Source: Allopontixanthobacter sediminis (lineage in GTDB: Bacteria > Pseudomonadota > Alphaproteobacteria > Sphingomonadales > Sphingomonadaceae). Taken from it: a stretch of DNA of 50,059 bases. The DNA lies in contig NZ_WTYL01000006.1 in NCBI RefSeq assembly GCF_009828115.1, forward strand, positions 1 through 50,059, given 5' to 3'. The position numbers and the translations under genes were made by a program. The notes under the pieces were generated by a model. That model saw only the letters and a list, made by a program, of their open reading frames with translations, made no database searches and was not told where the DNA came from. This document shows, one piece after another, positions 25,053 through 49,805 of this stretch (position 1 is the stretch's first letter; every line of letters starts with the position of its first letter).

Positions 25053-25952
25053 TCAACTCTGTTGCGCTAGGCGAACAATCTTCTCTCGAAGCCAGCTAAG
25101 TCCGGTGTCACGCGTCTTGGAAATGTGGTGCTGCATCATCTCACGCATCAATGGCAGTTCATAGGGAACTTCAACGACCGCAAGATCGAAGATTGGTTGG
25201 GTGACTTTGGCGAGGCGCTCATGCATCACTGCCAGCCTGTTTGTTCCGCGAAGGAGCCATGGGACCTGAATAAACGATTGAGCTGCTACTTCGATGCGCC
25301 GTTCGGGTGCTAGCTTTTTCAAAATAGTTTCGACGAAGGTATCCTGATTTGAAATCCGCACGGCAACGTGACCACATTTGAGGAACCTTTCGATAGACAT
25401 CGGACCGCTAAGGGCGGGGTTTCCCTTCGAACCCACCACGACATGCTTCTCTTCGAACAGCAATTCCGTCGGGTGATCAGAATCAAGAAATTCGTCCGGA
25501 GTTAAGAGCAGGTCGGTCTCCCCAGCCTCCAATCTTGCGGCGCTCTGGCTGCTTGGTAGAGACAGATTGAGCCGCACCCCGGGTGCCTCGACCTGCAGAT
25601 GCTCGATCAGCGGCACTAGCAAAACAGTGGTAATGTAGTCCGAGGCATTGATCTGGAACCGCCTTTTGGAAGTTGCCGGATCGAACCCAGTGCCAGTGGC
25701 AATGAGAGTCTTTAGCCGCATCAGTGTTATACTGACTTCGGGCGCCAGAGTGAGTGCGTGCTGGGTCGGGATCATCTTCTTGCCATGGAGGATCAGGATT
25801 TCGTCCTGAAAGCTCCCACGTAATCGCTTGAGCGAAGCGCTCATCGCTGATTGCGTAACGTTTAGTCGTTGGGCAGCGCGCGTCACACTGCGCTCTTCGA
25901 GCAAAACTTCGAAGGCAACTAACAGGTTAAGGTCGAAATTATCCAGCCGCAT
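25053..25952 (-). CDS. LysR-type regulator of the upper catabolic operon
   Basis: The product has 299 residues. An N-terminal winged HTH (about 6-65) contains FDLNLLVAFEVLLEERSVTRAAQRL and TQSAMSASLKRLR; the effector domain follows (about 90-295). The DLNLL start is typical of the NodD/NahR/LinR branch, whose members respond to aromatic inducers. It is divergent from the TonB receptor at 26064, separated by 111 bases, so it most likely controls that operon and itself. The frame extends to 26129, but this overlaps the receptor gene; ATG 25952 fits the family start. Confidence 0.92.
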   Translation of the reverse strand: MRLDNFDLNLLVAFEVLLEERSVTRAAQRLNVTQSAMSASLKRLRGSFQDEILILHGKKMIPTQHALTLAPEVSITLMRLKTLIATGTGFDPATSKRRFQINASDYITTVLLVPLIEHLQVEAPGVRLNLSLPSSQSAARLEAGETDLLLTPDEFLDSDHPTELLFEEKHVVVGSKGNPALSGPMSIERFLKCGHVAVRISNQDTFVETILKKLAPERRIEVAAQSFIQVPWLLRGTNRLAVMHERLAKVTQPIFDLAVVEVPYELPLMREMMQHHISKTRDTGLSWLREKIVRLAQQS

Positions 25953-26063: not shown

Positions 26064-28646
26064 ATGCGTAAGAATTTTCTGATCGGAAGCGCCGTAAGCG
26101 CGATTGTAGCGATGACCGCTAGCAGCCATGCGATGGCGCAGGATAGTGAAACGCGGACGGAAAGCGAACGCGATGCTGCGCTCACCGAAACCGCCGGCGT
26201 CTCGGGCGGCCTGAACGAAATCATCGTTACCGCTCAGCGCAAGTCCGAATCCTTGCAGGACGCAGCAATTCCTATAAACGCTGCCACCGGCGAAGATCTC
26301 GCTCGTGCAGGCGTAGCCGATGCAACTACTCTCAACGCCATAGCGCCGGCACTTTATGTGACAGCAGGTGGCGGGGCCAACGCCGGATATTTTGTCCGCG
26401 GCGTGGGTAATTTCACCAATAATGGCTATACCAGCCCAGCAGTGGCCTTCAATGTTGACGGGGTATATATCGGCCGCCCGTCGTCAACCATCGCATCGTT
26501 TCTAGACGTTGCGGTAGTGGAGGTGCTGAAGGGGCCGCAGGGAACCTTGTACGGGCGGAACGCAACCGGCGGCGCCATCAACGTGATCCCGACCAAACCG
26601 GTACCAGGCGAGACCAGCGGCTTTGTCTCCGGTTCCTATGGGAATTATGATGCTATCGGCGTCGAAGGCGCCTTGAATCTGGCTGTAGGCGAGGATGGTG
26701 CGATCCGGCTCTCCGCAGCGATCAATGATCACGATGGCTACAATCTTGATGGAACATTCGACGCCAAGGATTTTGCATTTCGGGGGCAATTCTACGCCGA
26801 GCCGACCAACGGGTTCGATATCCGTTTCTCCGTCGACTACTCGACCCAGAAGGGTGTCGGGCCCGGGACGGACGTTTTCGGTGCCTATCAACTGGTGCCC
26901 CCATTCGTGCCTGGCCGGAACGATCTCCCGGTTCCTGGATGGGAATTTCAACCGGCTCCTCCGGCAGTGGCAGAACCCTTTACCGGACTTCATACACCGG
27001 AAGCGCTGGCATATCTGGGCACCATTTCGACTGCACCCTTGTTTTCGCCATTCCAGGGCTTCGCCTATCCGTCGCGCGACGATGAATATCTCGGGGTGAA
27101 CGCGGAAGTTAACCTAGAGCTCGGAGATATCGATCTAGTCATAATCCCCGCCTATCGTCGTTCCGAATTAGACAATGTATTCAACGGGCCTCCGTTTAAA
27201 GCTGCAATCAATCAGGATACAGCGGAACAGTGGAGTATCGAGGCGCGTCTTTCAGGATCTTCTGGGCCAATCGACTGGATCGCGGGCACTTATTATTTCG
27301 ACGAGCGCGTCGAGGGGGTGAACGCCTTTAATCAATTCGGTACTGTCTCTAACAATGCATTCGATTCAAAGTCGGAATCACTGGCATTCTTTGGCCGTGC
27401 GACATTCAATATTTCGGACAGCCTTCGCCTTGTGGGCGGCCTACGTTACACTGACGAAAAGCGGTCGATTGATGCATTCGCTACCGCGACAGCCGGCGTT
27501 TGCTTGGAAGATCCTGTCGGTCGGGCACCTTTCTGCCCCCAGGTGCCAACCTTGCCGGTCGGCCTCACACTTCAGGATGTGTTAGGCGGCCTAAATCCCG
27601 CCCTGTTTCCGGTGCCCGGCAGGAACCCGCAAACTGCCTTCAATCCCAACGGAATGGATGGCGTGGGCCAAGTGTTTCCATATGGGCCAATCAACTTCTT
27701 CGCACCGGCGCAATTCGGGCCGGGCGCTCTGTTGATCATTACGCCGAACACCATCCAGCGTTCGGATAGCGACAACCAGCTCACTTATCGTGCGGCTGTC
27801 GAGTTTGATATCACTCCCGACAATTTGCTCTATGCCAGTTTCGAAAACGGCTTCCGCGCAGGCGGGTTCAATCTGGCACGCGGCCGGGAAACCTACGAAC
27901 CTGAATTCATCGATGCTTTCACTATTGGCTCGAAAAACCGGTTCTTCGACAACCGCTTCGAGCTGAATGCGGAGCTTTTCTACTGGAAATACAAAGGACA
28001 GCAGCTCGCTGCGCTTGGCGTAGATATCGATGGCAACAATGCGTTTTACACCCGCAACGTCGGGAAATCCTCGATCAAGGGCGTCGATATCGACTTCCAG
28101 TTCCTTGCCACAGAAACGACCCGCCTTCGTGGCGGCGTGCAATTCCTTGATGCCAAATATGACAATTACTCGTTTGATCAGGTCGATCTCGCTGATCCTG
28201 GTGATCCGCCCAACTTCTTGCGTCCAGTCACGTCTTGCGAAACGACGCAGCAGCCAATTGATCCAGCGACCGGCAAGGGATCCTATATCGTTGACTGTTC
28301 CGGCAAGCAGGCCCTCAATTCTCCGAAATGGTCGGCCAATGCGGGGATCGAGCAGACGATCGAATTAGGAGACCTGAAACTAGTAGGCACCTTCGATGGC
28401 CGCTATCGCGGTAGCCGCGAAGTGGGATTCAATTATATCCCGCAGAGTCGGGTGGGGAGCGATCTGACGCTTGATGCCTCACTCACTCTGGCCGAATTTG
28501 ATGATAAATGGTCGCTGACTGCCTTCGTCCGTAATATCACGGATGAAGCCGTTCCCACGACCGTACAACTGGGCTCAGGTAATATTGTCGGGGGGACATT
28601 TCAGCCGCCGCGGACCTATGGTGTTCGTGCACGGTTCAACTTCTGA
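26064..28646 (+). CDS. TonB-dependent receptor, first gene of the catabolic operon
   Basis: The product has 860 residues: a signal peptide ending near SHAMAQDSE, TonB-box-like LNEIIVTAQRKSESLQD, a plug with VEVLKGPQGTLYGRNATGGAIN, and a beta-barrel ending in YGVRARFNF. This EIIVTAQ/LYGRNATGG pattern is the large sphingomonad group, some of which import lignin-derived aromatics such as DDVA. GGGAGA precedes ATG 26064. The exported hydrolase gene follows in 13 bases, so it is the entry point of the operon; the probable cargo is the aromatic substrate of the downstream enzymes (inference). Confidence 0.93.
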   Translation: MRKNFLIGSAVSAIVAMTASSHAMAQDSETRTESERDAALTETAGVSGGLNEIIVTAQRKSESLQDAAIPINAATGEDLARAGVADATTLNAIAPALYVTAGGGANAGYFVRGVGNFTNNGYTSPAVAFNVDGVYIGRPSSTIASFLDVAVVEVLKGPQGTLYGRNATGGAINVIPTKPVPGETSGFVSGSYGNYDAIGVEGALNLAVGEDGAIRLSAAINDHDGYNLDGTFDAKDFAFRGQFYAEPTNGFDIRFSVDYSTQKGVGPGTDVFGAYQLVPPFVPGRNDLPVPGWEFQPAPPAVAEPFTGLHTPEALAYLGTISTAPLFSPFQGFAYPSRDDEYLGVNAEVNLELGDIDLVIIPAYRRSELDNVFNGPPFKAAINQDTAEQWSIEARLSGSSGPIDWIAGTYYFDERVEGVNAFNQFGTVSNNAFDSKSESLAFFGRATFNISDSLRLVGGLRYTDEKRSIDAFATATAGVCLEDPVGRAPFCPQVPTLPVGLTLQDVLGGLNPALFPVPGRNPQTAFNPNGMDGVGQVFPYGPINFFAPAQFGPGALLIITPNTIQRSDSDNQLTYRAAVEFDITPDNLLYASFENGFRAGGFNLARGRETYEPEFIDAFTIGSKNRFFDNRFELNAELFYWKYKGQQLAALGVDIDGNNAFYTRNVGKSSIKGVDIDFQFLATETTRLRGGVQFLDAKYDNYSFDQVDLADPGDPPNFLRPVTSCETTQQPIDPATGKGSYIVDCSGKQALNSPKWSANAGIEQTIELGDLKLVGTFDGRYRGSREVGFNYIPQSRVGSDLTLDASLTLAEFDDKWSLTAFVRNITDEAVPTTVQLGSGNIVGGTFQPPRTYGVRARFNF

Positions 28647-28659
28647 TTGGAGGGGTAGA

Positions 28660-29658
28660 ATGCGTGTTTTTCAACTGGGCCTGCTGAGTGCCTTGGCACT
28701 GGCCAGCGTGCCCGCCCAGGCAGACCATCACCAGGAAGCGTCCAGTCAGCAGGCTGAACACCTTGATGCGGGCCGTTGGGTAACTTTGGGTACCCGCGCC
28801 GGTCCGGTGACAAGCGCGACCCGGTCGCAGCCAGCAAACCTGCTGGTGGCCGGGGACCAGAACATTCTGGTCGACGTGGGAGACGGAACTGCAGGTCAGC
28901 TTGCGCATCTTGGAATACAGACTGCGGGCATCGATGCTGTATTTATCAGTCATTTGCACTGGGACCATACCGGAGGATTGGCCGCAATCCTCGGACTTCG
29001 TGCACAGACTAATGCACCGCCACGTCTGAAGATATACGGCCCTCCCGGCACGGCGGAATTGGTTTCCGGATTGCTCGCCTCAATGGTTCCGGGCGCCACG
29101 GCCGGTTATGGAGTGCCCGGCGCTCCGCGCGCAGATATACAGCAGATGACAGAAGTCGTGGAACTTCGCGATAATGCCAGCGTGGAACTCGCCGGCATGA
29201 CGGTGACGGTTCGCAACAATACCCATTACAGCTTTGCTGCAGACAGTGATCTTGCCAGACGTTTCGAATCGCTTTCTTTCCGGTTCGATCTGCCGGGGCG
29301 CTCGATCGTCTATACTGGCGACACTGGGCCGAGTGCAGCGGTCGAAGATCTCGCCAAAGGCGCTGACCTGCTCGTGGCTGAAATGATGGACGTCGACGAC
29401 ACCATCGCAATGGTCCGGCGCAATAATCCGAATATGCCGCCACAAGTGGCGGCAGGTATGGAACGTCATCTTCGCGAACACCATCTGCTCCCGAAAGACG
29501 TGGGCGAGCTGGCCGCTCGCGCAAAAGTCGGTGCGGTTGTCGTGACCCATTTCGCCGGTCGTGAAGTCGGCGATCCGGCACACCTCGAGTATTTGCGCGA
29601 GATCGCCACGAATTACGATGGTCCGGTGGTTATCGCCGACGACTTGGATGTATTCTGA
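28660..29658 (+). CDS. Exported metallo-beta-lactamase-fold hydrolase
   Basis: The product has 332 residues with a signal peptide (MRVFQLGLLSALALASVPAQA). The metal site ISHLHWDHTGG gives His98, His100, Asp102 and His103. Further ligands are likely in NNTHYSF, TGDTGPS and VTHFAG. It resembles the arylsulfatase/RNase Z-like branch, whose members cut esters, lactones or phospho/sulfo esters. In the periplasm it could trim the substrate before uptake (inference). GGAGGGG lies 5 to 7 bases before ATG, and the next gene begins 2 bases after its stop. Confidence 0.87.
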   Translation: MRVFQLGLLSALALASVPAQADHHQEASSQQAEHLDAGRWVTLGTRAGPVTSATRSQPANLLVAGDQNILVDVGDGTAGQLAHLGIQTAGIDAVFISHLHWDHTGGLAAILGLRAQTNAPPRLKIYGPPGTAELVSGLLASMVPGATAGYGVPGAPRADIQQMTEVVELRDNASVELAGMTVTVRNNTHYSFAADSDLARRFESLSFRFDLPGRSIVYTGDTGPSAAVEDLAKGADLLVAEMMDVDDTIAMVRRNNPNMPPQVAAGMERHLREHHLLPKDVGELAARAKVGAVVVTHFAGREVGDPAHLEYLREIATNYDGPVVIADDLDVF

Positions 29659-29660
29659 TC

Positions 29661-30776
29661 ATGGACAAGCAGCGCATCCTCATAATCGGTGGCGGTATTG
29701 GCGGACTCACCTCGGCGATTTCCCTGAGTCGCCACGGTCATGACGTTACCGTCATCGAAAAAGATCCCGACTGGTCGGTTTACGGCGTTGGCATCATCCA
29801 GCAATCCAATGTCATACGGGCAATGGCGGAACTGGATTTACTCGACGATTACCTCGCGGCGGGTGTGACGTTTGACAATATTGCAATCCACACTCCCGAT
29901 GGGACAAAGGTCGCAGAGATTCCCGCACCTCGCCTGACCGAAAACTACCCGGCCAATGTCGGGATTGGTCGGCCAGCCTTACACAAGGTGCTGGGCGACC
30001 GCACGATCGCATCGGGCGCCGAGGTCAGACTGGGTGTAACCGCGCAAACGATTAATGATCACGGTGATAGTGTGCACGTCGAATTTTCGAACGGGAAGGC
30101 CGAGGAATATGACTTCGTCGTGGGCGCAGACGGCGTCTATTCGGATACCCGGCAGAAGATCATGCCCGGTGCAGAGCAACCGGAATTCACGGGGCAGTCG
30201 GTCTGGCGCTACAATTTTAAGCGGCCTTCCGACCTTAATGCCCTGCACGTCTACAATGGCCCGACCGGCATCGGCCTCGTACCTATCAGCGAAGAGCTGA
30301 TGTACATGTATGTGACGACGCCGGAGCCAGACAAACCGCACTATCCCAGAGAAGGATGTGCCGAAGCCATGCGCAAGAAGCTGGCCAAGGCACCTCCACA
30401 AATCCAGAAACTGGCGCAAGAAATCACCGATGACGATGGTGTCGTCTACCGCCCGCTCGAGCAGATGATGCTTTACGGCGATTGGCACAAGGGCAGGGTA
30501 GTCCTGCTGGGCGACGCCGTCCATGCCACAACCCCGCATCTGGGTCAGGGCGCTGGCATGGCCATTGAGGACAGCCTCGTGCTCGCGGACGAGATAAAGA
30601 AGCACGACACGCCAGAGGCTGCCTTCGAAGCATACCGCGACCGCAGATTCGAGCGCTGCAAATATATCGTCGAAAAGTCGCTGGCGATTTGCAACGGTCA
30701 GCTCGGCAAGGGGCCTCCAGTCGACAATGCTGCCGCCACCCATGAAATGTTCGCGATCGTCGCGATGCCTATTTAG
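29661..30776 (+). CDS. FAD-dependent aromatic monooxygenase
   Basis: The product has 371 residues, class A flavoprotein hydroxylase. Features are the Rossmann GxGxxG (IIGGGIGGLTSAI, residues 8-20), the DG motif (FVVGADGVYSDTR) and the GD motif (VLLGDAVHATTPHLGQGAGM, from about residue 276). Length and motifs resemble salicylate-, 3-hydroxybenzoate- and hydroxypyridine-type hydroxylases, which add a ring OH using NAD(P)H and O2. It is followed by an extradiol dioxygenase, so its product may be a catechol (inference). It starts 2 bases after the preceding gene. Confidence 0.92.
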   Translation: MDKQRILIIGGGIGGLTSAISLSRHGHDVTVIEKDPDWSVYGVGIIQQSNVIRAMAELDLLDDYLAAGVTFDNIAIHTPDGTKVAEIPAPRLTENYPANVGIGRPALHKVLGDRTIASGAEVRLGVTAQTINDHGDSVHVEFSNGKAEEYDFVVGADGVYSDTRQKIMPGAEQPEFTGQSVWRYNFKRPSDLNALHVYNGPTGIGLVPISEELMYMYVTTPEPDKPHYPREGCAEAMRKKLAKAPPQIQKLAQEITDDDGVVYRPLEQMMLYGDWHKGRVVLLGDAVHATTPHLGQGAGMAIEDSLVLADEIKKHDTPEAAFEAYRDRRFERCKYIVEKSLAICNGQLGKGPPVDNAAATHEMFAIVAMPI

Positions 30777-30798
30777 ATTCAAGTTCAAGGATTTACAA

Positions 30799-31701
30799 AT
30801 GAACCGAGTGACCGAAATTCGCTATGTCGGATACGGCGTCGAAGACTTCGATACCGAGCGCAAGTTTTACGCTGACGATTGGGGACTGGTCGAAGTCGAC
30901 GCAACAGAGGATATGGCCTGGTTCAAGACTCACGGCCACGATGAGCACCACGTCGTCCGCCTCCACAAGCGTGACAGCAACTGTGTCGAGGTGATCGCGC
31001 TAGCGGCGGAAAGCCGCGAAGATGTCGAAGCGTTGCGAACCAAGGTTGGCGATGCAGGATGCAAGATCATCCACGAGCCTCGCGAACTTGATGCACCGGG
31101 CGGTGGATATGGTTTCCGCTTTTTTTCGCCCGATGGTCTGCCGTTCGAAATTTCTTCGGACGTAGAGCGCGGCGATCATCGCGCGATGGAGCGCTGGGAA
31201 GGGATGCCACTCAAGATCAGCCATATCGTTCTGCATTCGCCGGACCACCAAGAGGCGGTGAAGTTCTTTACCGATGTGCTTGGTTTCAAGGTTAGCGACT
31301 GGCTGGGTGACTTCATGTGCTTCCTGCGCTGCAACGAGGCGCACCATCGAATTGCACTGCTACCGGGGCCGCCGTGCCTGAACCACGTTGCCTACGATAT
31401 GCTGACAGTGGATGACATGATGCGCGGGGCGAGCCGCCTCAAGAAGCGCGATTGCGATATCCGTTGGGGTCCGGGTCGCCATACGGCGGGCAACAACACT
31501 TTCAGTTATTTCTGCACGCCATCTGGTTTTGCAGTCGAATATACTTCCGAACTGGACGAGGTGGATTTCGACTTTCACGAGGCAAAAGTGCACGAACCCG
31601 GTCCGCAGGTCATGGACCAATGGGGTGTCGGCGCCGGCGGTCCGCAGACCATGCCAAAACCTGCGCCCGATCCCTGCCTATTCCAGCCTGCGGAGGTCTG
31701 A
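30799..31701 (+). CDS. Type I extradiol ring-cleavage dioxygenase
   Basis: The product has 300 residues with two VOC modules (about 1-130 and 135-260), as in 2,3-dihydroxybiphenyl dioxygenase. The Fe(II) facial triad is intact: His142 (KISHIVLHSPD), His196 (CLNHVAYDM) and Glu247 (GFAVEYTSE). His228 may be the conserved acid/base residue. It should open a catechol next to its hydroxyls. The substrate is unknown. A C-terminal extension (after about 265) is Pro-rich. It sits 22 bases after the FAD monooxygenase gene and 4 before the hydrolase gene, supporting successive hydroxylation, cleavage and hydrolysis. Confidence 0.92.
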   Translation: MNRVTEIRYVGYGVEDFDTERKFYADDWGLVEVDATEDMAWFKTHGHDEHHVVRLHKRDSNCVEVIALAAESREDVEALRTKVGDAGCKIIHEPRELDAPGGGYGFRFFSPDGLPFEISSDVERGDHRAMERWEGMPLKISHIVLHSPDHQEAVKFFTDVLGFKVSDWLGDFMCFLRCNEAHHRIALLPGPPCLNHVAYDMLTVDDMMRGASRLKKRDCDIRWGPGRHTAGNNTFSYFCTPSGFAVEYTSELDEVDFDFHEAKVHEPGPQVMDQWGVGAGGPQTMPKPAPDPCLFQPAEV

Positions 31702-31705
31702 GACC

Positions 31706-32863
31706 ATGGCCCTATTTGAATTCTTTCCAAACTATATCTGGAATCTCTCGGTCGCGATCGCGATGGAAAGCGGCGGCAAGATCGGTGAGATCATCGATAT
31801 ATGCCAGCCGATCAAGGATGCCGCTGATGACGGCGCCGATGCCGGCACTCCGCAATATATGAAGCAGTGGGTTGCTATGGCCGACAAGCTGATCGAGCTG
31901 GCAGCTGAAGATGAGGCCAAGGGACGGAATTTCTCCGCTTCGAACAAGCTTGAGCGTGCTTCGCTCTATATGTTTACTGGCGAGCGCATGCAGGGCCATG
32001 GCCATCCGGGGCGCACGGAAACTTTCGCAAAAGCCCGCGACGCTTTTGATCGATCAACGCAGCTCGGACAAATTAACCGCGAGAGAATGGAAATCCCGCT
32101 GGACAACGGTACCATGCCCGCAATCTGGACCAAGGCACCGGGCGATGGCCCCAAGCCGGCGGTCGTGTTCTGCAACGGCCTCGATAGCAATAAGGAGCTT
32201 CTCTATTGGACGCGGCTGCCTGAAGAACTGGCGCGGCGCGGTATTTCGACGCTGTGTGTGGATCAGCCGGGCTCGGGAGAGGCCTTGCGTCTGCAAAATC
32301 TGCCCGTCGACCCGCATAGCGAAAGTTGGGCCTCCAAGGCAGTCGACTGGTTGGAGACTCAGGAGAATGTCGATGCCAGCAAGATTGGCATGACCGGTAT
32401 TTCGCTTGGCGGTCATTTTGCTCCGCGAGCAGTCGCCTATGAACCGCGTTTTGCAAGTGGTGCAGTTTGGGGAGCAAACCACAATTGGCGCGAAGTTCAG
32501 GATCAGCGGATGGCCCGCGAGGGGCAGAATCCGATTCCGCATTATTGGGCGCATGTTCATTGGGCGTTTGGGGCCGAGGACCAAGAAGACTTCCTCAAGA
32601 AGTCAGAGGACATGAACCTCAACGGGCACATGGATCGGATCAAGGTGCCTTTCTTGGTCACGCACGGTGCCAACGATCGGCAGATCAGCCCGAGCTACGC
32701 TGACGATCTTTATGATCAGCTGATCAATTCGCCGCGCCGTGAGAAGGTCGTGTTTACGCCCCGCGAAGGCGGTGTCGAACACGTTGGGGCGGACAACATG
32801 GCCTATGGCCTTGATCTGCTGTCGGACTGGTTTGCCGAAACGTTGGGAGGGCACGCCGGATGA
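31706..32863 (+). CDS. Alpha/beta hydrolase, C-C hydrolase-like (DHPON hydrolase type)
   Basis: The product has 385 residues. An N-terminal helical cap (about 1-125) precedes an alpha/beta core with PAVVFCNGLDSNKE, the nucleophile elbow GISLGG (Ser233), and probable Asp324 (THGANDRQIS) and His359 (GGVEHVG). Size and layout match the 2,6-dihydroxypseudooxynicotine hydrolase group of C-C hydrolases, larger than BphD-type hydrolases. It probably breaks a C-C bond in the ring-cleavage product or an aryl ketone, releasing a smaller acid (inference). Its stop overlaps the DUF2218 start (ATGA). Confidence 0.85.
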   Translation: MALFEFFPNYIWNLSVAIAMESGGKIGEIIDICQPIKDAADDGADAGTPQYMKQWVAMADKLIELAAEDEAKGRNFSASNKLERASLYMFTGERMQGHGHPGRTETFAKARDAFDRSTQLGQINRERMEIPLDNGTMPAIWTKAPGDGPKPAVVFCNGLDSNKELLYWTRLPEELARRGISTLCVDQPGSGEALRLQNLPVDPHSESWASKAVDWLETQENVDASKIGMTGISLGGHFAPRAVAYEPRFASGAVWGANHNWREVQDQRMAREGQNPIPHYWAHVHWAFGAEDQEDFLKKSEDMNLNGHMDRIKVPFLVTHGANDRQISPSYADDLYDQLINSPRREKVVFTPREGGVEHVGADNMAYGLDLLSDWFAETLGGHAG

Positions 32864-33186
32864 CTTATGCTGCCGAGGCCATTGTCCAGACAGAGAACGC
32901 GCAAAAGTACGCCACCCAGCTAGGAAAGCACTGGTCGCACAATCTGAAAGTCAGCGAGCACGGCGAAGACGTCCATATCGTCTTCCCAAAGAACGCGCGC
33001 GGAGCTGACTGGCCCGGCGATGCTCTTGTCGTGCTGGCACCGCAGGAGGGTGCATTGCGCTGCAGAATTGAAGCCAGTGCCGAAGGACAGCGAGACGGCC
33101 TCAAAGGCGCTGTTGAGCGTCATGTTGACCGTTTCGCGTTTCGCGAAGGGGCGTTGAATTACGCGTGGCAGGATAGCGTTAACTAA
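32860..33186 (+). CDS. DUF2218-domain protein
   Basis: The product has 108 residues and matches DUF2218 throughout: ENAQKYATQLGKHWSHNLKV, HIVFPKNARG and VERHVDRFAFREGALNYAW. The domain's role is not established. It overlaps the hydrolase gene by 4 bases and precedes the transporter gene by 16, so it is made with the pathway enzymes. Confidence 0.88.
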   Translation: MTYAAEAIVQTENAQKYATQLGKHWSHNLKVSEHGEDVHIVFPKNARGADWPGDALVVLAPQEGALRCRIEASAEGQRDGLKGAVERHVDRFAFREGALNYAWQDSVN

Positions 33187-33202
33187 CAACAGGACGACGC
33201 AG

Positions 33203-34396
33203 ATGACCGCAAGTACTGCTGAAACAGGCCGAATAGCAGGCACGAGGCAAGGGATTGTGCTTCTCCTTGTTTCGGTCATGCCAATGATGGCGATCATTTC
33301 GCTTGTTCCGGTTCTGCCGCTGTTGATGCGCGAGTTTGGCGATGTTGGCGGGGCCGAGTTCCTGGTGCCGATGGCGCTCACGATTCCGGCCTTGTGCGTG
33401 GCATTGCTTTCCCCGGCCGCCGGGTGGCTATCGGACCGCATCGGTCGCAAAGTCTTATTGGTCACCGCGCTCATTTTCTATGCAGCTTTTGGTATCATCC
33501 CTTGGTTCCTCGAAGATCTGTTTCAGATCATCGGCGCGCGTGTTGCCTTGGGGGCAACCGAAGCAATCATTATGACCGTGGCGACAACACTTATCGGGGA
33601 CTATTTCGAAGGTGAACGCCGTGAGAAATGGATCGCCCTTCAGGTCGCAATAGTCAGTCTCGCGGCCATCGTCCTCATTGCCATTGGCGGAGGGCTTGGA
33701 GAGGCGTTCGGATCGCGCGGTCCATTCCTGCTTTACCTGCTTGCTATCCCCGTCGCTTTTGTCGCAGTGGCGGTCTTGTTCGAGCCGCAAGTCAGCAAAG
33801 CGCAAACTGATAGCAGCACCGCTTTTCCTTATCGCGCGGTCCTTCCTCTGGTTGCCATTACCCTTGGCGTCGGAATCGTGTTTTACACCGTGATCGTGCA
33901 ACTCGGCCCTATCCTCGGGCTGTCGGGGGCCGTTTCGCCCGGGATGATCGGGGCGATCGGAGCCGCAGCGAATATTTGCGTTGGCCTGGGAACGCTCATC
34001 TTTAGTCGCCTCAAATCGAACGCGGGGTGGCCACTGCTCTCACTTGGTTTGTTCATCGCAACCATCGGTTATGCAGGCATGGCACTTTCGACAGGCCTTG
34101 CTCCCATCGCCATGTTCGCATGCCTGGCCTGTGTCGGTAACGGCGTCATGCTTCCCAATATGCTTGCATGGGTCATGCGCCGCCTGCCTTCAGAAATGCG
34201 TGGGCGCGGTACAGGAATGTGGACCGGCGCATTTTTCCTCGGACAGTTTCTGGCACCGCTGGTTACCGCCGCCGTCATTGGAGCGACCTCGGGCCTTGCG
34301 AATGCGCTGCTCGCCTATGCGGCAGTCATCGGGGTTGGTGCGATCGCCACGATGACATTCTTTTCACGAAAATCGCATACGCGGCACACTGCATGA
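33203..34396 (+). CDS. MFS transporter
   Basis: The product has 397 residues and about 12 hydrophobic helices, with the loop 2-3 motif GWLSDRIGRKVLL, and EGERREKWIALQ in a cytoplasmic loop. Its place in the operon suggests inner-membrane uptake of the aromatic substrate or export of a product. It lacks an obvious aromatic-acid symporter (AAHS) signature, so the cargo is not assigned. Its TGA overlaps the P450 ATG (ATGA). Confidence 0.9.
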   Translation: MTASTAETGRIAGTRQGIVLLLVSVMPMMAIISLVPVLPLLMREFGDVGGAEFLVPMALTIPALCVALLSPAAGWLSDRIGRKVLLVTALIFYAAFGIIPWFLEDLFQIIGARVALGATEAIIMTVATTLIGDYFEGERREKWIALQVAIVSLAAIVLIAIGGGLGEAFGSRGPFLLYLLAIPVAFVAVAVLFEPQVSKAQTDSSTAFPYRAVLPLVAITLGVGIVFYTVIVQLGPILGLSGAVSPGMIGAIGAAANICVGLGTLIFSRLKSNAGWPLLSLGLFIATIGYAGMALSTGLAPIAMFACLACVGNGVMLPNMLAWVMRRLPSEMRGRGTGMWTGAFFLGQFLAPLVTAAVIGATSGLANALLAYAAVIGVGAIATMTFFSRKSHTRHTA

Positions 34397-35586
34397 CATC
34401 GAACCAATTTCCGGTCCTCGATATCGACCCCTTCGACGAGGCATTCCTGTGCGATCCCTATACGCATCATGCCGCGCTGCGCGACGCGGCGCCGGTGGTC
34501 TGGCTGGACGCGATTGGCGCCTACGGGATGGCGCGCTTTGAAGAGGTTCAAAGCGCGCTTCGTGATCATGGGACGTATTGCTCAGGTCGCGGTGTTGGAC
34601 TGGCAGATTTTTCCAAGGAAGAACCATTCCGTCCGCCATCTCTGTTGCTGGAAGCGGATCCTCCGCTGCACGACCGCACGCGCGGCTTGATGAACAAAAT
34701 TGTTTCTTTGAAAGCCCTCAAGCAGTTGCGCCCGCAATGGCAGGTGAAGGCGGAGCGCTTGATCGAAAGCCTTGTCGAAAAAGGCAGCTTCGACGCTGTG
34801 CCTGAGCTTTCAGAGGCGTTTCCGATGATAATCTTCCCAGACACGATCGGACTGGCCGACGAAGGGCGCGAGCATCTCATCGACTATGCGACCATCGTGT
34901 TCAACGCCTTTGGCCCGCGCAACCGGGTGTTTGAAGAGGGCAATGCTGGCAAAGAAGCTGCCATCGAATGGGTGGCCTGGGCCTGCGAGCGGGAAAACCT
35001 TAAGCCAGGTGGTTGGGGAATGGCGCTTTATGAAGCGGCCGATCGCGGTGAATGCACGTCGGACGAAGCGGCGCGTATGGTTCGCTCCTTTCTCTCAGCC
35101 GGTGTCGACACGACGGTGAACGGTATCGGCCACATGGTCCTGGCCCTTGCGAAGCATCCGGCGCAGTTCGCCAAGCTACGCGAGAATCCGAAACTTGCCC
35201 CGCGCGCCTTTGAGGAAAGCCTGCGCTGGGATTCAACGGTGCAAACCTTCTTCAGGACGACGACCGGAGATGTGGAGGTCGAAGGTGGCACGATCCCGGA
35301 AGGATCCAAGGTTCTGTTATTCCTCGCGTCGGCTAATCGCGATCCGCGGAAATGGGACGATGCAGACGATTTCCAAGTTGATCGGAATGTCAGCGGGCAT
35401 GTGGGTTTCGGCTTTGGAATACATCAATGTCTCGGCCAAATGGTCGCACGCCTTGAAGGCGAGTTGATTGGAACAGCGTTAGCCAATCAGGTCGCATCAA
35501 TTCGGCTGACTGGGGAACCGGTGCGGAGGCTGAATAACACATTGCATGCTTTGGGATCACTGCCAATTGAGCTTGAGGCCGCGTGA
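34393..35586 (+). CDS. CYP199-like cytochrome P450 (4-methoxybenzoate O-demethylase type)
   Basis: The product has 397 residues. The I-helix is SFLSAGVDTTVNG (Ala236-Thr241), the ExxR segment is FEESLRW, and the haem loop is HVGFGFGIHQCLG (Cys346). Segments such as YCSGRGVGLADF, VFNAFGP, VQTFFRTTTGDVE and LASANRDPRKWDD closely resemble CYP199A proteins as I remember them; those demethylate 4-methoxybenzoate to 4-hydroxybenzoate with release of formaldehyde. PobA, which uses 4-hydroxybenzoate, lies in the same operon. No ferredoxin or ferredoxin reductase gene is in the window, so partners must be encoded elsewhere. GST begins inside its stop (GTGA). Confidence 0.88.
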   Translation: MTSNQFPVLDIDPFDEAFLCDPYTHHAALRDAAPVVWLDAIGAYGMARFEEVQSALRDHGTYCSGRGVGLADFSKEEPFRPPSLLLEADPPLHDRTRGLMNKIVSLKALKQLRPQWQVKAERLIESLVEKGSFDAVPELSEAFPMIIFPDTIGLADEGREHLIDYATIVFNAFGPRNRVFEEGNAGKEAAIEWVAWACERENLKPGGWGMALYEAADRGECTSDEAARMVRSFLSAGVDTTVNGIGHMVLALAKHPAQFAKLRENPKLAPRAFEESLRWDSTVQTFFRTTTGDVEVEGGTIPEGSKVLLFLASANRDPRKWDDADDFQVDRNVSGHVGFGFGIHQCLGQMVARLEGELIGTALANQVASIRLTGEPVRRLNNTLHALGSLPIELEAA

Positions 35587-36281
35587 CCCAGTCACCGCCA
35601 ATACTCTATTTTGCCCCATCCACCTGCGCGCGAGTGACGTTGACAGCGCTTGAGGAGATTGGGGAGCCATTCGAAACGCGACTTATCGCCTTCATGGCGG
35701 GTGAACATCGCCGGCCCGCTTATCTCGCAGTTAACCCTTCGGGCAAGGTCCCAGCTCTCGACACTGGCAGCGGGGTGGTCACGCAGAACGGGTCAATCCT
35801 GTTATACCTTGCGCGGACAAGGCCGGATGCCGGGTTGCTTCCGCTGACTGGCGAGCCATTGCAGGAATCGGCAATTGTTTCTGCTCTTTTTCGTTTTTCG
35901 AGTGATCTGCATCCGCTCGTCACGCGCTTCGTACTCCCGGGCATGATGCTGTGTTCAAACGATGCTGCGCCCCAGGTGCGCGAAAAGGCCGAGGAACTGC
36001 TTTTGCAGCAGTTGCATCCGATTGACGCGCAACTGGACGCTCAGCCGTGGGTACTCGGGGGAAATTGGTCGATCCTCGACAGCTATCTGGCTTGGATTTG
36101 GTTTCGCATCACCGGCGCAGGTTTCGATCACGGCATTTTTCCGGCAATCGCAACCCATTACGAACGCGCAGGCGAGCGGCCTTCGGCGAGAGCCGCGCTG
36201 GCGCATGAGAAACGCGCGATGGCAGAACTCGTACGGCGCGGTCTGTCATTTACTCCACCGCGCCTGAAAACTGAGAACTAA
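35583..36281 (+). CDS. Glutathione S-transferase family protein
   Basis: The product has 232 residues, starting with GTG that overlaps the P450 stop. The thioredoxin-like N-domain (1-80) has PSTCARVTLTALEEIGEPFE, VNPSGKVPAL (cis-Pro) and a NGSILLYLAR glutathione-binding segment. The helical C-domain follows. Catalytic Ser/Cys13-15 region is plausible. Related enzymes act as ether-cleaving enzymes (LigE/F type), dehalogenases or isomerases in aromatic catabolism. Which applies here is not clear. Confidence 0.85.
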   Translation: MTQSPPILYFAPSTCARVTLTALEEIGEPFETRLIAFMAGEHRRPAYLAVNPSGKVPALDTGSGVVTQNGSILLYLARTRPDAGLLPLTGEPLQESAIVSALFRFSSDLHPLVTRFVLPGMMLCSNDAAPQVREKAEELLLQQLHPIDAQLDAQPWVLGGNWSILDSYLAWIWFRITGAGFDHGIFPAIATHYERAGERPSARAALAHEKRAMAELVRRGLSFTPPRLKTEN

Positions 36282-36292
36282 AAGAGGAAGCC

Positions 36293-36862
36293 ATGTCAAA
36301 AAATCCAATCCGCAGGGTGGTTACTGGTCACGATTCGTCAGGGAAAGCAATCATACAGGACGACGGGATTGTCCCGCGTATCCAGCGCATCGGAGGTGAT
36401 ACAGGGCCGCTGTTCTACGAGGTCTGGAACACCCGAGCGACGCCTGCCCCTATCGATCCGGCTTCGGGGGAGCCGCCGGAAGAGGGCATAATTTTGGCCC
36501 CGCCGAAGAACGGCACACGCATCCGCGTTCTCGACATCCCGCCCGATGATCCGTCTTTGGCCGAAATGACCCCGGAGGAAGCCCGGGCGCACTTTGCCGA
36601 GATCGGAGCAGCAGACGCTTCATCCTTCGAGGGCAAGGAATCCCGCCATGCTCATATGCATCGCACTGAAACCATTGACTACGGCATCGTCCTAGAAGGC
36701 GAGATCGTTCTGATCATGGATGAAGGGGAGACGACTGTGCGAGCAGGTGACATCGTCGTCCAGCGAGGCACCAACCACGGCTGGGCCAACCGGACGGATA
36801 AGAATTGCCGCATCGCGTTCATTCTGATCGACGGTGAATTCAGCCAAGAATTGAAGGGTTGA
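36293..36862 (+). CDS. Cupin-domain protein
   Basis: The product has 189 residues. Cupin motif 1 contains RHAHMHRTETIDYGIVLEGE (His119, His121 or His123, and Glu126), and motif 2 RAGDIVVQRGTNHGW adds His162, giving a metal site. It has one cupin domain at the C-terminal half, unlike bicupin gentisate dioxygenases. Candidate roles are a ring-cleaving or C-C-cleaving enzyme or an isomerase. It lies 11 bases after the GST gene and ends 1 base before the FAH gene. Confidence 0.85.
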   Translation: MSKNPIRRVVTGHDSSGKAIIQDDGIVPRIQRIGGDTGPLFYEVWNTRATPAPIDPASGEPPEEGIILAPPKNGTRIRVLDIPPDDPSLAEMTPEEARAHFAEIGAADASSFEGKESRHAHMHRTETIDYGIVLEGEIVLIMDEGETTVRAGDIVVQRGTNHGWANRTDKNCRIAFILIDGEFSQELKG

Positions 36863-36863
36863 T

Positions 36864-37832
36864 ATGCGGCTGGCAACTTTGAAATCGAGCTCAGCTGACG
36901 GGCAGTTGGTGGCGGTATCTCGTGACGGCTCACGCTATTTGGCAATTGGCCACGACACCCCCAATATGCTGGCGGCAATCGAGCGGTGGGACTCGATCGG
37001 GTCGGTTCTTGCTCAGTTGGGGGATCGCCTCGATCAGGGCGAGGGAGAGCCGTTTGACGCATCGAATTGCGCCGCGCCGCTGCCGCGTAGCTGGCAATGG
37101 CTCGACGGGTCCGCTTTTTCTACACATGGCGAATTGATGCAGATCGCTTTCGGTCTCGACCCGATCGAGTCGGAGAAGCCACTGATGTATCAAGGGATGT
37201 CGGATCGCTTCCACGGTCCGACCGACAATGTGCCCTTGCCCAGCATGGAGCACGGAATAGATTTTGAGGGCGAGTTCGGCGTGATTGTCGATCATGTTCC
37301 CATGGGCACCAGCGCCGCAGACGCCATGAAGCACATCAAGTTGATCGTACAGATCAACGACTGGTCACTGCGTGCCATCGCTCCGGTCGAAATGAAGACG
37401 GGCTTTGGTTGGGTGCAGGCAAAACCCGCCTGTTCGATGGCGCCCTTTGCAGTGACGCCTGATGAGCTCGGCGAAGGATGGAAAAATGGACGTGTCTGTC
37501 TCGATCTGGAGATCGACTGGAATGGCGACCGCTTCGGCGCAGCCAATGGCCGGCAGATGGACGTCGGTTTTCATGATCTCGTGGCCCATGCAGCCTATAC
37601 ACGCGACCTCGTCGCCGGGACGGTGATCGGCTCTGGGACCGTCTCCAACGCCAATTATGCCGAAGTCGGCTCCAGCTGTATCTCGGAGATTCGCGCGATC
37701 GAAATGATCCGCGACAAGGGACCCGCCAGCACTCCGTTTATGGTATTCGGAGATACCATCCGCATGGAAGGGCGCGGGCTGAACGGCGGATCACCGTTCG
37801 GCGTCATCGAACAGCGGGTCGTCGAGGCTTGA
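36864..37832 (+). CDS. Fumarylacetoacetate hydrolase family enzyme
   Basis: The product has 322 residues. An N-terminal domain (1-95) precedes the FAH core. Metal ligands are in IDFEGEFGVIVDHVP (Glu/Glu pair) and the following QINDWSLR region; SSCISEIR lies near the end. Relatives hydrolyse C-C bonds of ring-cleavage acids, or decarboxylate or hydrate them. A cupin, a GST and an FAH enzyme in sequence recall gentisate/homogentisate-type routes, but the cupin is single-domain, so this is only analogy. Its TGA overlaps the pobA TTG. Confidence 0.9.
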   Translation: MRLATLKSSSADGQLVAVSRDGSRYLAIGHDTPNMLAAIERWDSIGSVLAQLGDRLDQGEGEPFDASNCAAPLPRSWQWLDGSAFSTHGELMQIAFGLDPIESEKPLMYQGMSDRFHGPTDNVPLPSMEHGIDFEGEFGVIVDHVPMGTSAADAMKHIKLIVQINDWSLRAIAPVEMKTGFGWVQAKPACSMAPFAVTPDELGEGWKNGRVCLDLEIDWNGDRFGAANGRQMDVGFHDLVAHAAYTRDLVAGTVIGSGTVSNANYAEVGSSCISEIRAIEMIRDKGPASTPFMVFGDTIRMEGRGLNGGSPFGVIEQRVVEA

Positions 37833-38998
37833 GGGTTCCGGTCTGCATTATCGGTGCAGGCCCCGCCGGATTGTTTCTCGGGCACCTGCTGAGTGCTGAG
37901 GGCATCGAATCTGTTGTGCTTGAGCGGCAGTCGCCCGAGTACGTGCGTGGACGCATCCGCGCCGGCGTCCTAGAAAATATCACCGTCGGTTTGCTGGAGC
38001 GCCTCGGGCTAGATGCGCGGATGAAGGGCGAAGGCCTGCCGCATGATGGCTTCAACCTTGCCGATGGCGAGCGGCTGATCCGGATCGACATAAAGGAACT
38101 GACCGGTCAAGAAGTCATGGTCTATGGCCAGACCGAGGTCACACGGGATCTGATGGAGGCGTGTGAAGAGCGCGCCCTACAAGTTTTGTACGAGGTCGGC
38201 GATGTCACGCTCCACGATATCGAAAGCGATAGGCCATCGGTGACCTACAAAAAAGGTGGGATCGAGCACCGGATCGATTGTCGTATTATCGTTGGATGCG
38301 ACGGATTCCACGGGCCAAGCCGGAAAGCGATCCCCTCTGATGCCGGCAAGGAATATGAACGCATATACCCATTCGGCTGGCTCGGAATCCTAGCCGATGT
38401 TCCGCCGTGTAATCATGAACTTATTTACGCCAATCACGAGCGCGGCTTCGCGCTTGCCTCGATGCGTTCGAATACGCGCAGCCGTTACTATGTCGACGTA
38501 CCGGTTAACGATAAGGTCGAGGATTGGATCGATGAGCGTGTTTGGGATGAGCTGTCTCTTCGCCTAGGTCCGGAGGCAGCGGCAAATATCACGCGAGGAC
38601 CATCGCTTGAAAAAAGCATTGTCCCGCTGCGGTCCTACGTGTTCGCGCCAATGCGCCATGGCTCGCTTATGCTTTGTGGGGACGCAGCGCATATCGTCCC
38701 GCCGACAGGAGCGAAAGGGCTAAACTTGGCAGCCAGTGACGTACATTACGCGGCAGATGCATTGATCCGCTACTTCAACCAAAGTGAGCCCGACGCAATT
38801 GCCGGATATTCGGACAGAGCGCTTGCACGAGTGTGGAAGGCTGAACGATTCAGCTGGTCACTTACCCGCCTGATGCACCGTTTCCTCGATGACGGCCCTT
38901 TCGAGCGGGCGATGCAGATGGCCGAACTCGATTACATTGCGACCAGCCGTGCCGCACAAACCGCCATCGCTGAGAATTACGTCGGGCTTCCCGTCTAG
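37829..38998 (+). CDS. pobA: 4-hydroxybenzoate 3-monooxygenase
   Basis: PobA hydroxylates 4-hydroxybenzoate to protocatechuate using NAD(P)H and O2. The product has 389 residues, the family length, starting at TTG 37829-37831, which overlaps the FAH stop. It has VCIIGAGPAGLFLGHLL (FAD), a DG motif (IIVGCDGFHGPSR) and LCGDAAHIVPPTGAKGLNLAA (GD motif), plus PobA-like VLERQSPEYVRGRIRAG. It ends the plus-strand operon and links it to the lig genes on the other side. It converges on the PepSY gene at 39009 with no clear terminator between. Confidence 0.93.
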   Translation: MRVPVCIIGAGPAGLFLGHLLSAEGIESVVLERQSPEYVRGRIRAGVLENITVGLLERLGLDARMKGEGLPHDGFNLADGERLIRIDIKELTGQEVMVYGQTEVTRDLMEACEERALQVLYEVGDVTLHDIESDRPSVTYKKGGIEHRIDCRIIVGCDGFHGPSRKAIPSDAGKEYERIYPFGWLGILADVPPCNHELIYANHERGFALASMRSNTRSRYYVDVPVNDKVEDWIDERVWDELSLRLGPEAAANITRGPSLEKSIVPLRSYVFAPMRHGSLMLCGDAAHIVPPTGAKGLNLAASDVHYAADALIRYFNQSEPDAIAGYSDRALARVWKAERFSWSLTRLMHRFLDDGPFERAMQMAELDYIATSRAAQTAIAENYVGLPV

Positions 38999-41529: not shown

Positions 41530-41545
41530 GGAATTCTCCTGAAAA

Positions 41546-42848
<1,303 letters not shown>

Positions 42849-42852
<4 letters not shown>

Positions 42853-43007
42853 TCCGTCGAACCCCACTTTACCAGATCGCGGAGTTGGGTAACCAGATCT
42901 TTTCCCTTGGTTTTGGGGCAAGAATCTACTGTTTCCACGTAGATCAAGGCATAGCCGACCTGGAACGCCTTCGTTTGCTTTGCAAATTTCAAGCCTGCTT
43001 CCGTCAT
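42849..43007 (-). CDS. Unrecognised 52-aa protein coupled to ligA
   Basis: An uninterrupted ATG-to-TGA frame of 52 codons exactly fills the gap between the Rieske gene and ligA. Its ATG overlaps the Rieske stop by 4 bases (ATGA) and its TGA overlaps the ligA ATG by 4 bases. The product begins MTEAGLKFAKQTKAFQVGYA, has LIYVETVDSCPKTKGKDLV and ends KWGSTE; it has one Cys and is soluble and slightly basic. I recognise no family. Double overlap is strong evidence for translation. A subunit or assembly role for LigAB or the Rieske enzyme is possible (inference). Confidence 0.7.
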
Positions 43008-47192: not shown

Positions 47193-47863
47193 ATGCCAGT
47201 CGTCGTTCAGAATATCGAGCGTGCTGATGCGGCAGTCATCGATGGTTTGGCCAAATGCGGGGTGGCAACAGTCCACGAAGCGCAGGGGCGTATCGGCTTG
47301 TTAGCGAGCTACATGCGCCCGATTTATCCCGGCGCTCGCATTGCCGGGAGTGCGTTGACGATCAGTGCCGCTCCAGGTGACAATTGGATGATCCATGTTG
47401 CGATCGAGCAATTGCGCGAGGGAGACGTCCTCCTTCTTGCTCCCACGTCGCCTTGCGAGGATGGCTATTTCGGTGACCTCCTTGCCACCAGTGCCCAGGC
47501 CCGCGGATGCAGAGGACTCATTATCGATGCCGGTGTTCGCGATGTACGCGACCTTACCGAAATGCAATTTCCGGTCTGGTCGAAGGCCGTATTCGCTCAA
47601 GGCACCGTCAAGAACACGCTCGGCAGTGTCAACGTGCCGGTAGTGTGCGGCGGCGCATATATTGAAGCGGGCGATGTGCTCGTAGCGGACGATGATGGGG
47701 TTTGCGTGGTGAAGCGGGCCGATGCCGATCTGGTGCTGGAAGCCGCGCAGGTCCGCGAGGCCATGGAGCAGAAAAAGCGCGATTCCCTAGCTTCGGGCAT
47801 CCTTGGCCTCGACATGTACAACATGCGCGAGCGGCTTGAGGCTGAGGGATTGAAGTACATTTA

Positions 47864-47864: not shown

Positions 47865-49805
<1,941 letters not shown>

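Follow-up and report, generated by a model that had tools for sequence, protein, structure and literature searches.

The window analysed here is a 50,059-nucleotide stretch of Allopontixanthobacter sediminis DNA that makes up one entire contig. It was rejected as a circular plasmid because its ends lack a terminal overlap. Between positions 26064 and 38998, twelve genes lie on the same strand with intergenic gaps of only -4 to +22 bases, confirming the 12-gene operon of the original prediction. They encode, in order, a TonB-dependent receptor, a metallo-beta-lactamase-fold hydrolase (MBL), a FAD monooxygenase (FMO), a VOC dioxygenase, an alpha/beta hydrolase (ABH), a DUF2218 protein, an MFS transporter, a cytochrome P450 (CYP), a glutathione S-transferase (GST), a cupin, a FAH-family hydrolase and PobA (Table 1). 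The original prediction named eleven functions; the twelfth gene is that for the DUF2218 protein. The divergent LysR-type regulator is possibly a flavonoid sensor. Consensus scans do not help to define the operon limits: they return 4 promoter-like sites versus 6.7 +/- 2.9 in shuffled sequences, and 21 terminator-like sites, mostly intragenic, versus 12.9 +/- 3.6. Adjacent to the operon, Lig-type genes span positions 40567-49805.

Table 1. Genes of the operon and its surroundings, in window coordinates
Feature	Coordinates	Strand	Domains, models and remarks
LysR-type regulator	25053..25952	-	HTH_1 + LysR_substrate (Pfam); divergent to operon
TonB-dependent receptor, outer-membrane import	26064..28646	+	PF00593, PF07715
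Metallo-beta-lactamase-fold hydrolase (MBL)	28660..29658	+	PF12706; apparent signal peptide (judged by eye)
Group A FAD monooxygenase (FMO), predicted flavonoid 8-hydroxylase	29661..30776	+	NF005313/PRK06847
VOC extradiol dioxygenase, predicted A-ring cleavage	30799..31701	+	PDB 3b59 match
Alpha/beta hydrolase (ABH), predicted C-C hydrolase removing A-ring remnant	31706..32863	+	2jbw match
DUF2218 protein	32860..33186	+	PF09981
MFS transporter	33203..34396	+	PF07690
CYP199A-type cytochrome P450, predicted 4-methoxybenzoate O-demethylase	34393..35586	+	CYP199A4 likeness
Glutathione S-transferase (GST)	35583..36281	+	PF13409, PF02798
Cupin, predicted pyranone-opening enzyme (IfcD role)	36293..36862	+	PF07883 (Cupin_2)
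FAH-family hydrolase, predicted aroylacetoacetate hydrolase	36864..37832	+	PF01557, PF18288
PobA, 4-hydroxybenzoate 3-monooxygenase	37829..38998	+	TIGR02360
Putative LigC-type dehydrogenase (Gfo/Idh/MocA)	40567..41529	-	PF19858, PF01408; adjoins ligAB, as in locus L017
LigB, protocatechuate 4,5-dioxygenase beta	41546..42451	-	PF02900; NF009903 523.3 bits, cutoff 317
LigA, protocatechuate 4,5-dioxygenase alpha	42451..42921	-	TIGR02792 179.7 bits, cutoff 108.6
VanA-type Rieske oxygenase, probable O-demethylase	43004..44038	-	PF19112, PF00355
Putative LigI-type amidohydrolase (named from position)	44035..45060	-	PF04909
Putative LigK-type (RraA-like), LigU-type (PrpF) and LigJ-type (amidohydrolase) genes	47193..49805	+	PF03737, PF04303, PF04909

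The FMO matches model NF005313/PRK06847 with 471.6 bits (cutoff 372), and its GD motif residues D285, H288 and P292 are kept in 127/127 homologues of at least 35% identity. It is predicted to fill the role of FdeE and IfcA, that of a flavonoid 8-hydroxylase, and its gene adjoins that of the extradiol VOC enzyme as in the fde and ifc clusters. The VOC enzyme matches PDB 3b59 (E=1.9e-154), and residues H142, H196 and E247 are present in 69/69 homologues with 30% identity or more. Its identity to the FdeC-like query VOC is about 27%, which places it outside the FdeC/IfcB subfamily. The FdeC/IfcB role would be filled by a member of a different VOC subfamily. No homologue of the Rieske protein FdeD was found in the window or in 52 sphingomonad loci (see below), so that the gene set is not an fde operon in the strict sense.

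The ABH belongs to the group of 2,6-dihydroxypseudooxynicotine hydrolase, Ayg1 and AntI. Its top match is 2jbw by both phmmer and Foldseek; the matches of its model that follow are Wdyg1p, AntI and Ayg1p, which act in polyketide shortening, with acylaminoacyl peptidase 3fnb among them. The triad S233, D324 and H359 is kept in 138/138 homologues. Two neighbours are less informative. The DUF2218 model (pLDDT 89.4) has 2jpi (PA4090) as its nearest fold, which says nothing of function, and the GST matches the maiA model below cutoff, with isomerase or quinone scavenger as candidate roles.

The P450 shares 202 of 391 aligned residues (51.7%) with CYP199A4, bearing out the earlier label 'CYP199-like'; the CYP199A naming rule asks for more than 40% identity. 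All 11 CYP199A4 residues compared are present, namely the carboxylate-binding pocket R92, S95, R243, S244, F182 and F185 together with L98, A248, D251, T252 and F298 (F331 and G248 were left out because their names do not fit the chain). Since the pocket is kept, the enzyme is likely, on sequence grounds, a 4-methoxybenzoate O-demethylase. No ferredoxin gene was found in the operon, and five Fer2-domain matches occur elsewhere in the genome. PobA scores 612.6 bits against the equivalog model TIGR02360 (cutoff 538.7).

The cupin is a protein of 189 aa whose PDB matches at E<=0.01 are just 3es1 (113 bits) and 8x0u. H123 and H162 are kept in 62/62 homologues and H119 in 60/62. The FAH-family hydrolase, a member of the FAH superfamily, retains E135, E137, D166 and K187 in 105/105 homologues; these are presumably the acidic metal ligands and the catalytic lysine of the FAH site. 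Its strongest PDB match, 3lzk, names no substrate, and the weaker 8gsr is a diketo-acid hydrolase. A gentisate-type reading of GST, cupin and FAH was rejected as the main one, given the size and sparse matches of the cupin and the substrate-less match of the FAH enzyme. The original prediction had also suggested that the cupin and FAH enzyme might deal with the other fragment, here that of the A ring. The published IfcD, a cupin, acts on a pyranone still bearing the B ring (PMC11069340), which rejects this placement and moves both enzymes to the B-ring side, where they would carry out benzoate-releasing steps.

The core of the operon recurs widely. ABH homologues (E<=1e-100) are found in 62 of 397 sampled family genomes, and 50 of the 62, including that of the window, reach at least 64% identity. 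Among 52 fetched sphingomonad loci, chosen by ABH of at least 64% identity, homologues of VOC (47), FAH (46) and FMO (41) are common. LysR (33), a variable TonB-dependent receptor (31; 25-61% identity) and MBL (20) are less frequent, and DUF2218 and GST occur in 12 loci each. PobA or lig genes lie inside the fetched stretch in seven loci and CYP199 in four, not counting a LigI match of 24% in L158 and a CYP match of 28% in L144. Cupin (25 loci) and a Cyclase-family gene (22) are mutually exclusive, with both in none and neither in five, when matches below 60% identity are not taken as operon genes. One locus of another genus (L111, genome G476) has LysR, TonB-dependent receptor, MBL, FMO, VOC, ABH, DUF2218, MFS, CYP, GST, cupin and FAH followed by lig genes. 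Its receptor is merely 37% identical and PobA has no match, but an order so nearly the same in another genus argues that the arrangement is not due to chance.

A further 85 loci comprise the best 80 of 396 retrieved with an FdeC-like VOC query and five picked plasmid loci, two of which were chosen by their ABH. In tblastn searches, these contain homologues of ABH (75), FMO (74), LysR (64), FAH (51) and the cupin (36, with 31-49% identity); the cupin is likened to IfcD by published description. The name Herbaspirillum seropedicae does not occur in the best 80 of 396. No sphingomonad flavonoid operon was found in the open-licence literature searched, and IfcA homologues in Sphingopyxis are mentioned in PMC11069340.

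The gene core is also linked to C-glycoside deglycosidase genes. The beta subunit family PF19906 is present in 23/397 family genomes, and 23/23 of these also have the ABH (p=5e-21, with genomes of the same genus not being independent); in 10 of the 23, the two genes lie within 20 kb. A control family, PF00866 (102/397 genomes), is mildly enriched too, with an odds ratio of 2.9 (p=2e-4 when all genomes with the ABH are taken, p=0.057 with close ABH). Substrates of characterised C-glycoside deglycosidases include C6- or C8-glycosylated flavonoids, among others. No PF19906 gene was found in the window's own genome, so for this genome the link is not direct.

These observations of gene content, catalytic residue conservation, family assignment and genomic linkage make a strong case for a flavonoid as the substrate class. 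The operon probably encodes a sphingomonad form of the pathway by which bacteria cleave the A ring of flavonoids, with a 5,7-dihydroxyflavone as its most likely substrate. The original prediction had already mentioned flavonoids as fitting, and its two-ring logic, in which one ring is hydroxylated, opened and cut off and a 4-methoxybenzoate-type acid passes via protocatechuate to the Lig enzymes, is supported. Its view that the substrate is undescribed and that nothing identifies it gives way to the fde/ifc enzyme kinds in the core and the link to C-glycoside deglycosidase genes. Very probably, the gene block degrades plant flavonoids in such a way that one ring and the linker end up as ordinary metabolites and the other ring as a simple benzoic acid.

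In the proposed route, a flavone whose B ring is oxygenated at the 4' position (including 4'-methoxy) would be imported via the TonB receptor, and the FMO would add a hydroxyl at C8. Next, the VOC dioxygenase would open the A ring beside the ring oxygen. The ABH would cut the C4a-C5 bond, much as 2,6-dihydroxypseudooxynicotine hydrolase detaches the acyl arm of its ring. If the A ring is 5-hydroxylated, the arm released would be the four-carbon remnant oxaloacetate, leaving a 6-aryl-4-hydroxy-pyranone. The cupin would open this to an aroylacetoacetate, and the FAH enzyme would split the latter, in the manner known for fumarylacetoacetate, to give acetoacetate plus 4-methoxy- or 4-hydroxybenzoate. 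Demethylation by CYP199 and hydroxylation by PobA would give protocatechuate for breakdown by the adjacent Lig genes. The carbon balance is C15 = C4 + C4 + C7.

Of these steps, 8-hydroxylation, the involvement of a VOC enzyme, the pyranone intermediate and a cupin acting on it are known from relatives. The published pyranone X3 (m/z 203.0353; PMC11069340) has lost four A-ring carbons by our count, in favour of the proposed route. More tentative is the full scheme, in which an ABH releasing oxaloacetate from 5-hydroxylated (phloroglucinol-type) A rings and an aroylacetoacetate-cleaving FAH enzyme that works just as in tyrosine breakdown would split the flavone into oxaloacetate, acetoacetate and benzoate without CoA or side-chain oxidation, and a cupin or a Cyclase-family protein could serve equally well to open the pyrone. 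If true, this unreported complete route would explain why, in Variovorax, disruption of the ABH homologue left degradation of daidzein, which lacks the 5-hydroxyl, unaffected (PMC11069340). The oxaloacetate mechanism predicts this outcome, which redundancy can explain as well. MBL, GST and DUF2218 fall outside the proposed steps and count against the flavonoid reading, and comparable gene kinds serve other plant aromatics, such as hcdABC in 7-hydroxycoumarin breakdown.

It is unlikely, though conceivable, that the same A-ring pathway acts on a flavanone or isoflavone, with CYP199 and PobA merely co-regulated to serve a separate benzoate supply. Characterised relatives do act on naringenin and isoflavones, and the low counts of PobA/lig and CYP199 in the sphingomonad loci would make these genes accessories. 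However, by general chemistry the product expected from an isoflavone is of the arylacetate type and that from a flavanone has a C3 side chain in reduced form, neither requiring a benzoate demethylase in the operon, and CYP199 homologues of at least about 59% identity sit beside core pathway genes in 6/7 genomes outside the window. Furthermore, the window lacks a homologue of the SDR 'epimerase' gene that occurs in fde-like operons and in 13/52 sphingomonad loci.

It is distinctly improbable that the same logic serves to degrade a different bicyclic aromatic of plants, be it C-glycosylated or polyhydroxylated (a xanthone, anthraquinone, coumarin or dihydrochalcone). The anthraquinone 3'-oxo-carminic acid is a substrate of CarB/CarC, a characterised C-glycoside deglycosidase, a xanthonoid is among the substrates studied, and the ABH relatives AntI and Ayg1 work in polyketide shortening. 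Against this, an IfcD-kind cupin within a full FMO/VOC/ABH/cupin/FAH set indicates a chromone core, processing of a 4-oxygenated benzoate suits a flavonoid B ring, and the deglycosidase link is indirect here. It is barely credible that the operon serves a compound with a single ring, for instance 4-methoxybenzoate or a methoxyphenylpropanoid, and that its first genes have nothing to do with this substrate: CYP199 and PobA suffice to convert 4-methoxybenzoate to protocatechuate, but it is FMO, VOC, FAH and ABH (the last by selection) that make up the recurrent core, not CYP199.

Flavonoids are major root exudates. A flavonoid A-ring pathway in this operon would add a sphingomonad type to the fde and ifc clusters and link flavonoid breakdown with C-glycoside deglycosylation and a known P450; such operons are a likely natural setting of CYP199-type demethylases in sphingomonads. 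It also offers testable roles for the ABH and the X2 to X3 step, to which no role had been assigned in ifc, and for the FAH enzyme.

Several characterised systems resemble parts of the operon. CYP199A4 of Rhodopseudomonas palustris has the same substrate pocket as the window P450, which, unlike it, sits in a flavonoid-type operon that lacks a ferredoxin gene. 2,6-Dihydroxypseudooxynicotine hydrolase and the Ayg1/Wdyg1/AntI hydrolases act on electron-rich rings, which they relieve of an acyl arm. They have the fold and catalytic triad of the window ABH in common with it at about 20% identity, and their own substrates are nicotine catabolites and polyketides.

Two oxidative bacterial clusters described for growth on flavonoids are fde (naringenin) and ifc (isoflavones), and likeness of the window proteins to FdeE, FdeC and IfcA-D is judged from family, neighbourhood and published description. 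The fde cluster of Herbaspirillum seropedicae SmR1 combines an FdeE-type FMO with the glyoxalase-type FdeC, kinds present in the window, and follows the same logic of A-ring hydroxylation, then cleavage, with protocatechuate as the end (PMC8552027, PMC11303751, PMC11069340). It differs in the Rieske partner FdeD with which FdeE works and in its VOC subfamily, and the passages on fde in these sources do not mention CYP199. IfcB of Variovorax sp. V35 is 65.8% identical to FdeC, as against about 27% between the window VOC and an FdeC-like VOC, and V35 has two cupins, IfcD1 and IfcD2, where the window has one (PMC11069340). Compared with ifc as described there, the window adds a TonB receptor, MBL, FAH, CYP199, GST and PobA within one operon. 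Common to both are an FMO, a VOC enzyme, an ABH like 2,6-dihydroxypseudooxynicotine hydrolase and a cupin, and in ifc the A ring is attacked first to leave an aryl pyranone, as is proposed for the window (PMC11069340).

We predict with good confidence that the operon is dedicated to a flavonoid substrate. Its 12 plus-strand genes are separated by distances of only -4 to +22 bases, which upholds the operon of the original prediction, and domain searches matched the gene list proposed there with one extra gene, DUF2218. A group A FAD monooxygenase (FMO), an extradiol dioxygenase (VOC), an alpha/beta hydrolase (ABH) and a cupin are together in this single operon. To its right are VanA-, LigA-, LigB-, LigC-, LigI-, LigK-, LigU- and LigJ-type genes, several of them named from family and position. 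The window spans one entire contig (50,059 bases) out of the six that make up the genome, and terminal overlap is absent.

Coordinates of the operon, its neighbors and one related cluster
Feature	Position	Strand	Remark
LysR gene	25053-25952		divergent from operon
Operon	26064-38998	+	12 genes
VOC	30799-31701	+	solved close homologue 3b59
183-aa open frame	39009-39560	-	between pobA and aldo/keto reductase, on the opposite strand; looks by eye like a small membrane protein
VanA-type Rieske oxygenase	43004-44038	-	within lig group
NAD-binding/DUF1932 protein	45057-45902	-	in lig group; homologues adjoin lig-type genes in loci L136 and L167
Related cluster, N. aromaticivorans pNL2 (locus L028)	7903-13911		ABH 43%, FAH 62%, cupin 43%, FMO 41%; hisD-like gene

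Residues of the presumed active sites are invariant among homologues of these enzymes. The ABH triad S233, D324 and H359 is kept in 138/138. Likewise, VOC residues H142, H196 and E247, which we take to be ligands, are kept in 69/69, and the assumed site residues E135, E137, D166 and K187 of the FAH-family hydrolase (FAH) in 105/105. Cupin residues H123 and H162, presumably also site residues, are found in 62/62. The predicted ABH model (pLDDT 85.0) best matches 2,6-dihydroxypseudooxynicotine (DHPON) hydrolase, followed by Wdyg1p, an acylaminoacyl peptidase (3fnb), AntI and Ayg1p. The cupin has a solved relative, 3es1. This structure and that of the VOC homologue are named by family only, and the operon context suggests a function for both.

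Open-licence papers describe two oxidative pathways for flavonoids: the fde operon of Herbaspirillum seropedicae (naringenin) and the ifc cluster of Variovorax sp. V35 (isoflavones; ifcA/B/D1/D2 have accessions LC777269-LC777272). The ifc report states that the FMO hydroxylates daidzein at C8, that 8-hydroxydaidzein builds up in VOC-gene mutants, and that deletion of both cupins causes build-up of an aryl pyranone, X3, on which the purified cupins act (PMC11069340). The same report describes an alpha/beta hydrolase similar to 2,6-DHPON hydrolase in the cluster, and disruption of the ABH homologue leaves daidzein degradation unaffected (PMC11069340).

These observations can be joined in a candidate mechanism. 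Deduced from its name, X3 would be C11H8O4, and its pyranone positions imply loss of A-ring carbons C5-C8 with retention of C4a and C8a. Hydroxylation at C8 and then C8-C8a cleavage would give a pyranone bearing a C4 arm. Where a C5 hydroxyl is present, the arm would be an acylpyruvate attached via a ring-bound ketone; this bond would be of the type cut by DHPON hydrolase, and its hydrolysis would yield oxaloacetate. The null effect of ABH-homologue disruption on daidzein would follow from its absent 5-hydroxyl, although redundancy could also account for it. In the flavone case, the remaining 6-aryl-4-hydroxy-2-pyrone would open to 5-aryl-3,5-dioxopentanoate, the aroyl analogue of fumarylacetoacetate, which the FAH enzyme could split into acetoacetate and a benzoate (predicted carbon balance 4+4+7=15). 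Such a benzoate-releasing route would account for CYP199 (acting on 4-methoxybenzoate), PobA and Lig genes at one locus. From an isoflavone or flavanone, benzoate would not be a direct product of the same chemistry. We offer the preference for flavones, along with two new reaction roles, as proposals. The VanA-type oxygenase in the lig group may demethylate a 3'-methoxy B-ring product; other VanA-like genes lie between FMO and VOC in loci L113, L122 and L142.

Over 391 aligned residues, the window P450 (CYP) has 51.7% identity with CYP199A4, and it shares R92, S95, L98, F182, F185, R243, S244, A248, D251, T252 and F298. D251, T252 and F298 are pocket or catalytic residues of CYP199A4. PMC11854964 lists the first eight residues as touching the substrate and places R92, S95 and S244 (or R243) at its carboxylate. 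Eight of the 397 sampled genomes of the family, the window's counted, have a homologue at about 59% or above. Core genes adjoin the CYP in six of the seven others: with ABH in L111, L118, L124 and L150, with FMO, VOC and cyclase in L165, and with FAH, a cupin (38%) and an FMO (39%) in L163. They were not found beside the CYP homologue of L164.

The ABH itself is present in 62/397 genomes. We fetched every locus outside the window whose ABH shows at least 64% identity (close ABH): 52 loci in 49 genomes. These loci carry VOC (47), FAH (46), FMO (41), LysR (33) and a TonB-dependent receptor (TBDR; 31), and less frequently a metallo-beta-lactamase-fold hydrolase (MBL; 20), GST (12), DUF2218 (12) and CYP199 (4, leaving out a fifth match of 28% identity). 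The counts define a core of FMO-VOC-ABH-FAH plus one variable gene, which is a cupin in 25 loci, a Cyclase-family protein in 22, neither in 5 and never both (Fisher p=3e-10, inflated by kinship of the genomes). This exclusion suggests exchangeable enzymes for one step; however, an fde-like Burkholderia operon has both kinds. PobA or lig genes fall within the fetched stretch of only 7/52 loci. One carrier of the core is Novosphingobium pentaromativorans US6-1, on its plasmid pLA3. Three genomes hold two close-ABH loci with differing neighbors (L112 and L123 in G699, L116 and L117 in G431, L118 and L128 in G694), which suggests parallel versions serving different glycosides or decorations.

A link to C-glycosides bears on the substrate. 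Loci L013 and L023 have adjoining TIM-barrel and PF19906 genes (for the alpha and beta subunits of C-glycoside deglycosidase) together with oxidoreductases of the GMC and Gfo/Idh/MocA families, and PF19906 homologues lie inside the fetched stretch of 6/52 close-ABH loci. In the family, PF19906 occurs in 23/397 genomes of 14 genera, and all 23 have the ABH (p=5e-21); it is in 22/50 genomes with a close ABH versus 1/347 others. The two genes are at most 20 kb apart in 10/23 and at most 60 kb in 13/23, the remainder being farther away or on a different contig. The control family PF00866 (ring-hydroxylating dioxygenase beta; 102/397 genomes) is in 28/62 ABH genomes (odds ratio 2.9, p=2e-4) and 18/50 close-ABH genomes (odds ratio 1.76, p=0.057). 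No PF19906 gene was found in the window's own genome. According to PMC8563793, deglycosidases act on C6- or C8-glycosylated flavonoids, and the CarB/CarC substrate is an anthraquinone C-glycoside. The link thus favors a flavonoid without proving it alone.

For comparison with fde, loci were scanned with the VOC of a Massilia putida cluster, which we regard as FdeC-like because FMO and Rieske genes adjoin it. Among 85 loci (the best 80 of 396 plus five picked plasmid loci, of which L026 and L028 were picked by ABH), window-protein homologues numbered VOC 85, ABH 75, FMO 74, LysR 64, FAH 51, cupin 36, MFS 26, TBDR 7, MBL 2, PobA 2, CYP 1 and GST 1. A Burkholderia anthina cluster, taken for an fde operon by gene content, reads transporter-ABH-EthD-VOC-Rieske-FMO-MFS-cyclase-cupin-FAH-epimerase. 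The 'epimerase' (SDR) gene of such operons is possibly the oxidant for the flavanone case; no homologue was found in the window. In fde, as described in PMC8552027, the FMO FdeE is partnered by the Rieske protein FdeD. The window type differs in that its VOC belongs to a different subfamily and in that no FdeD homologue was found, either in the window or in the 52 close-ABH loci.
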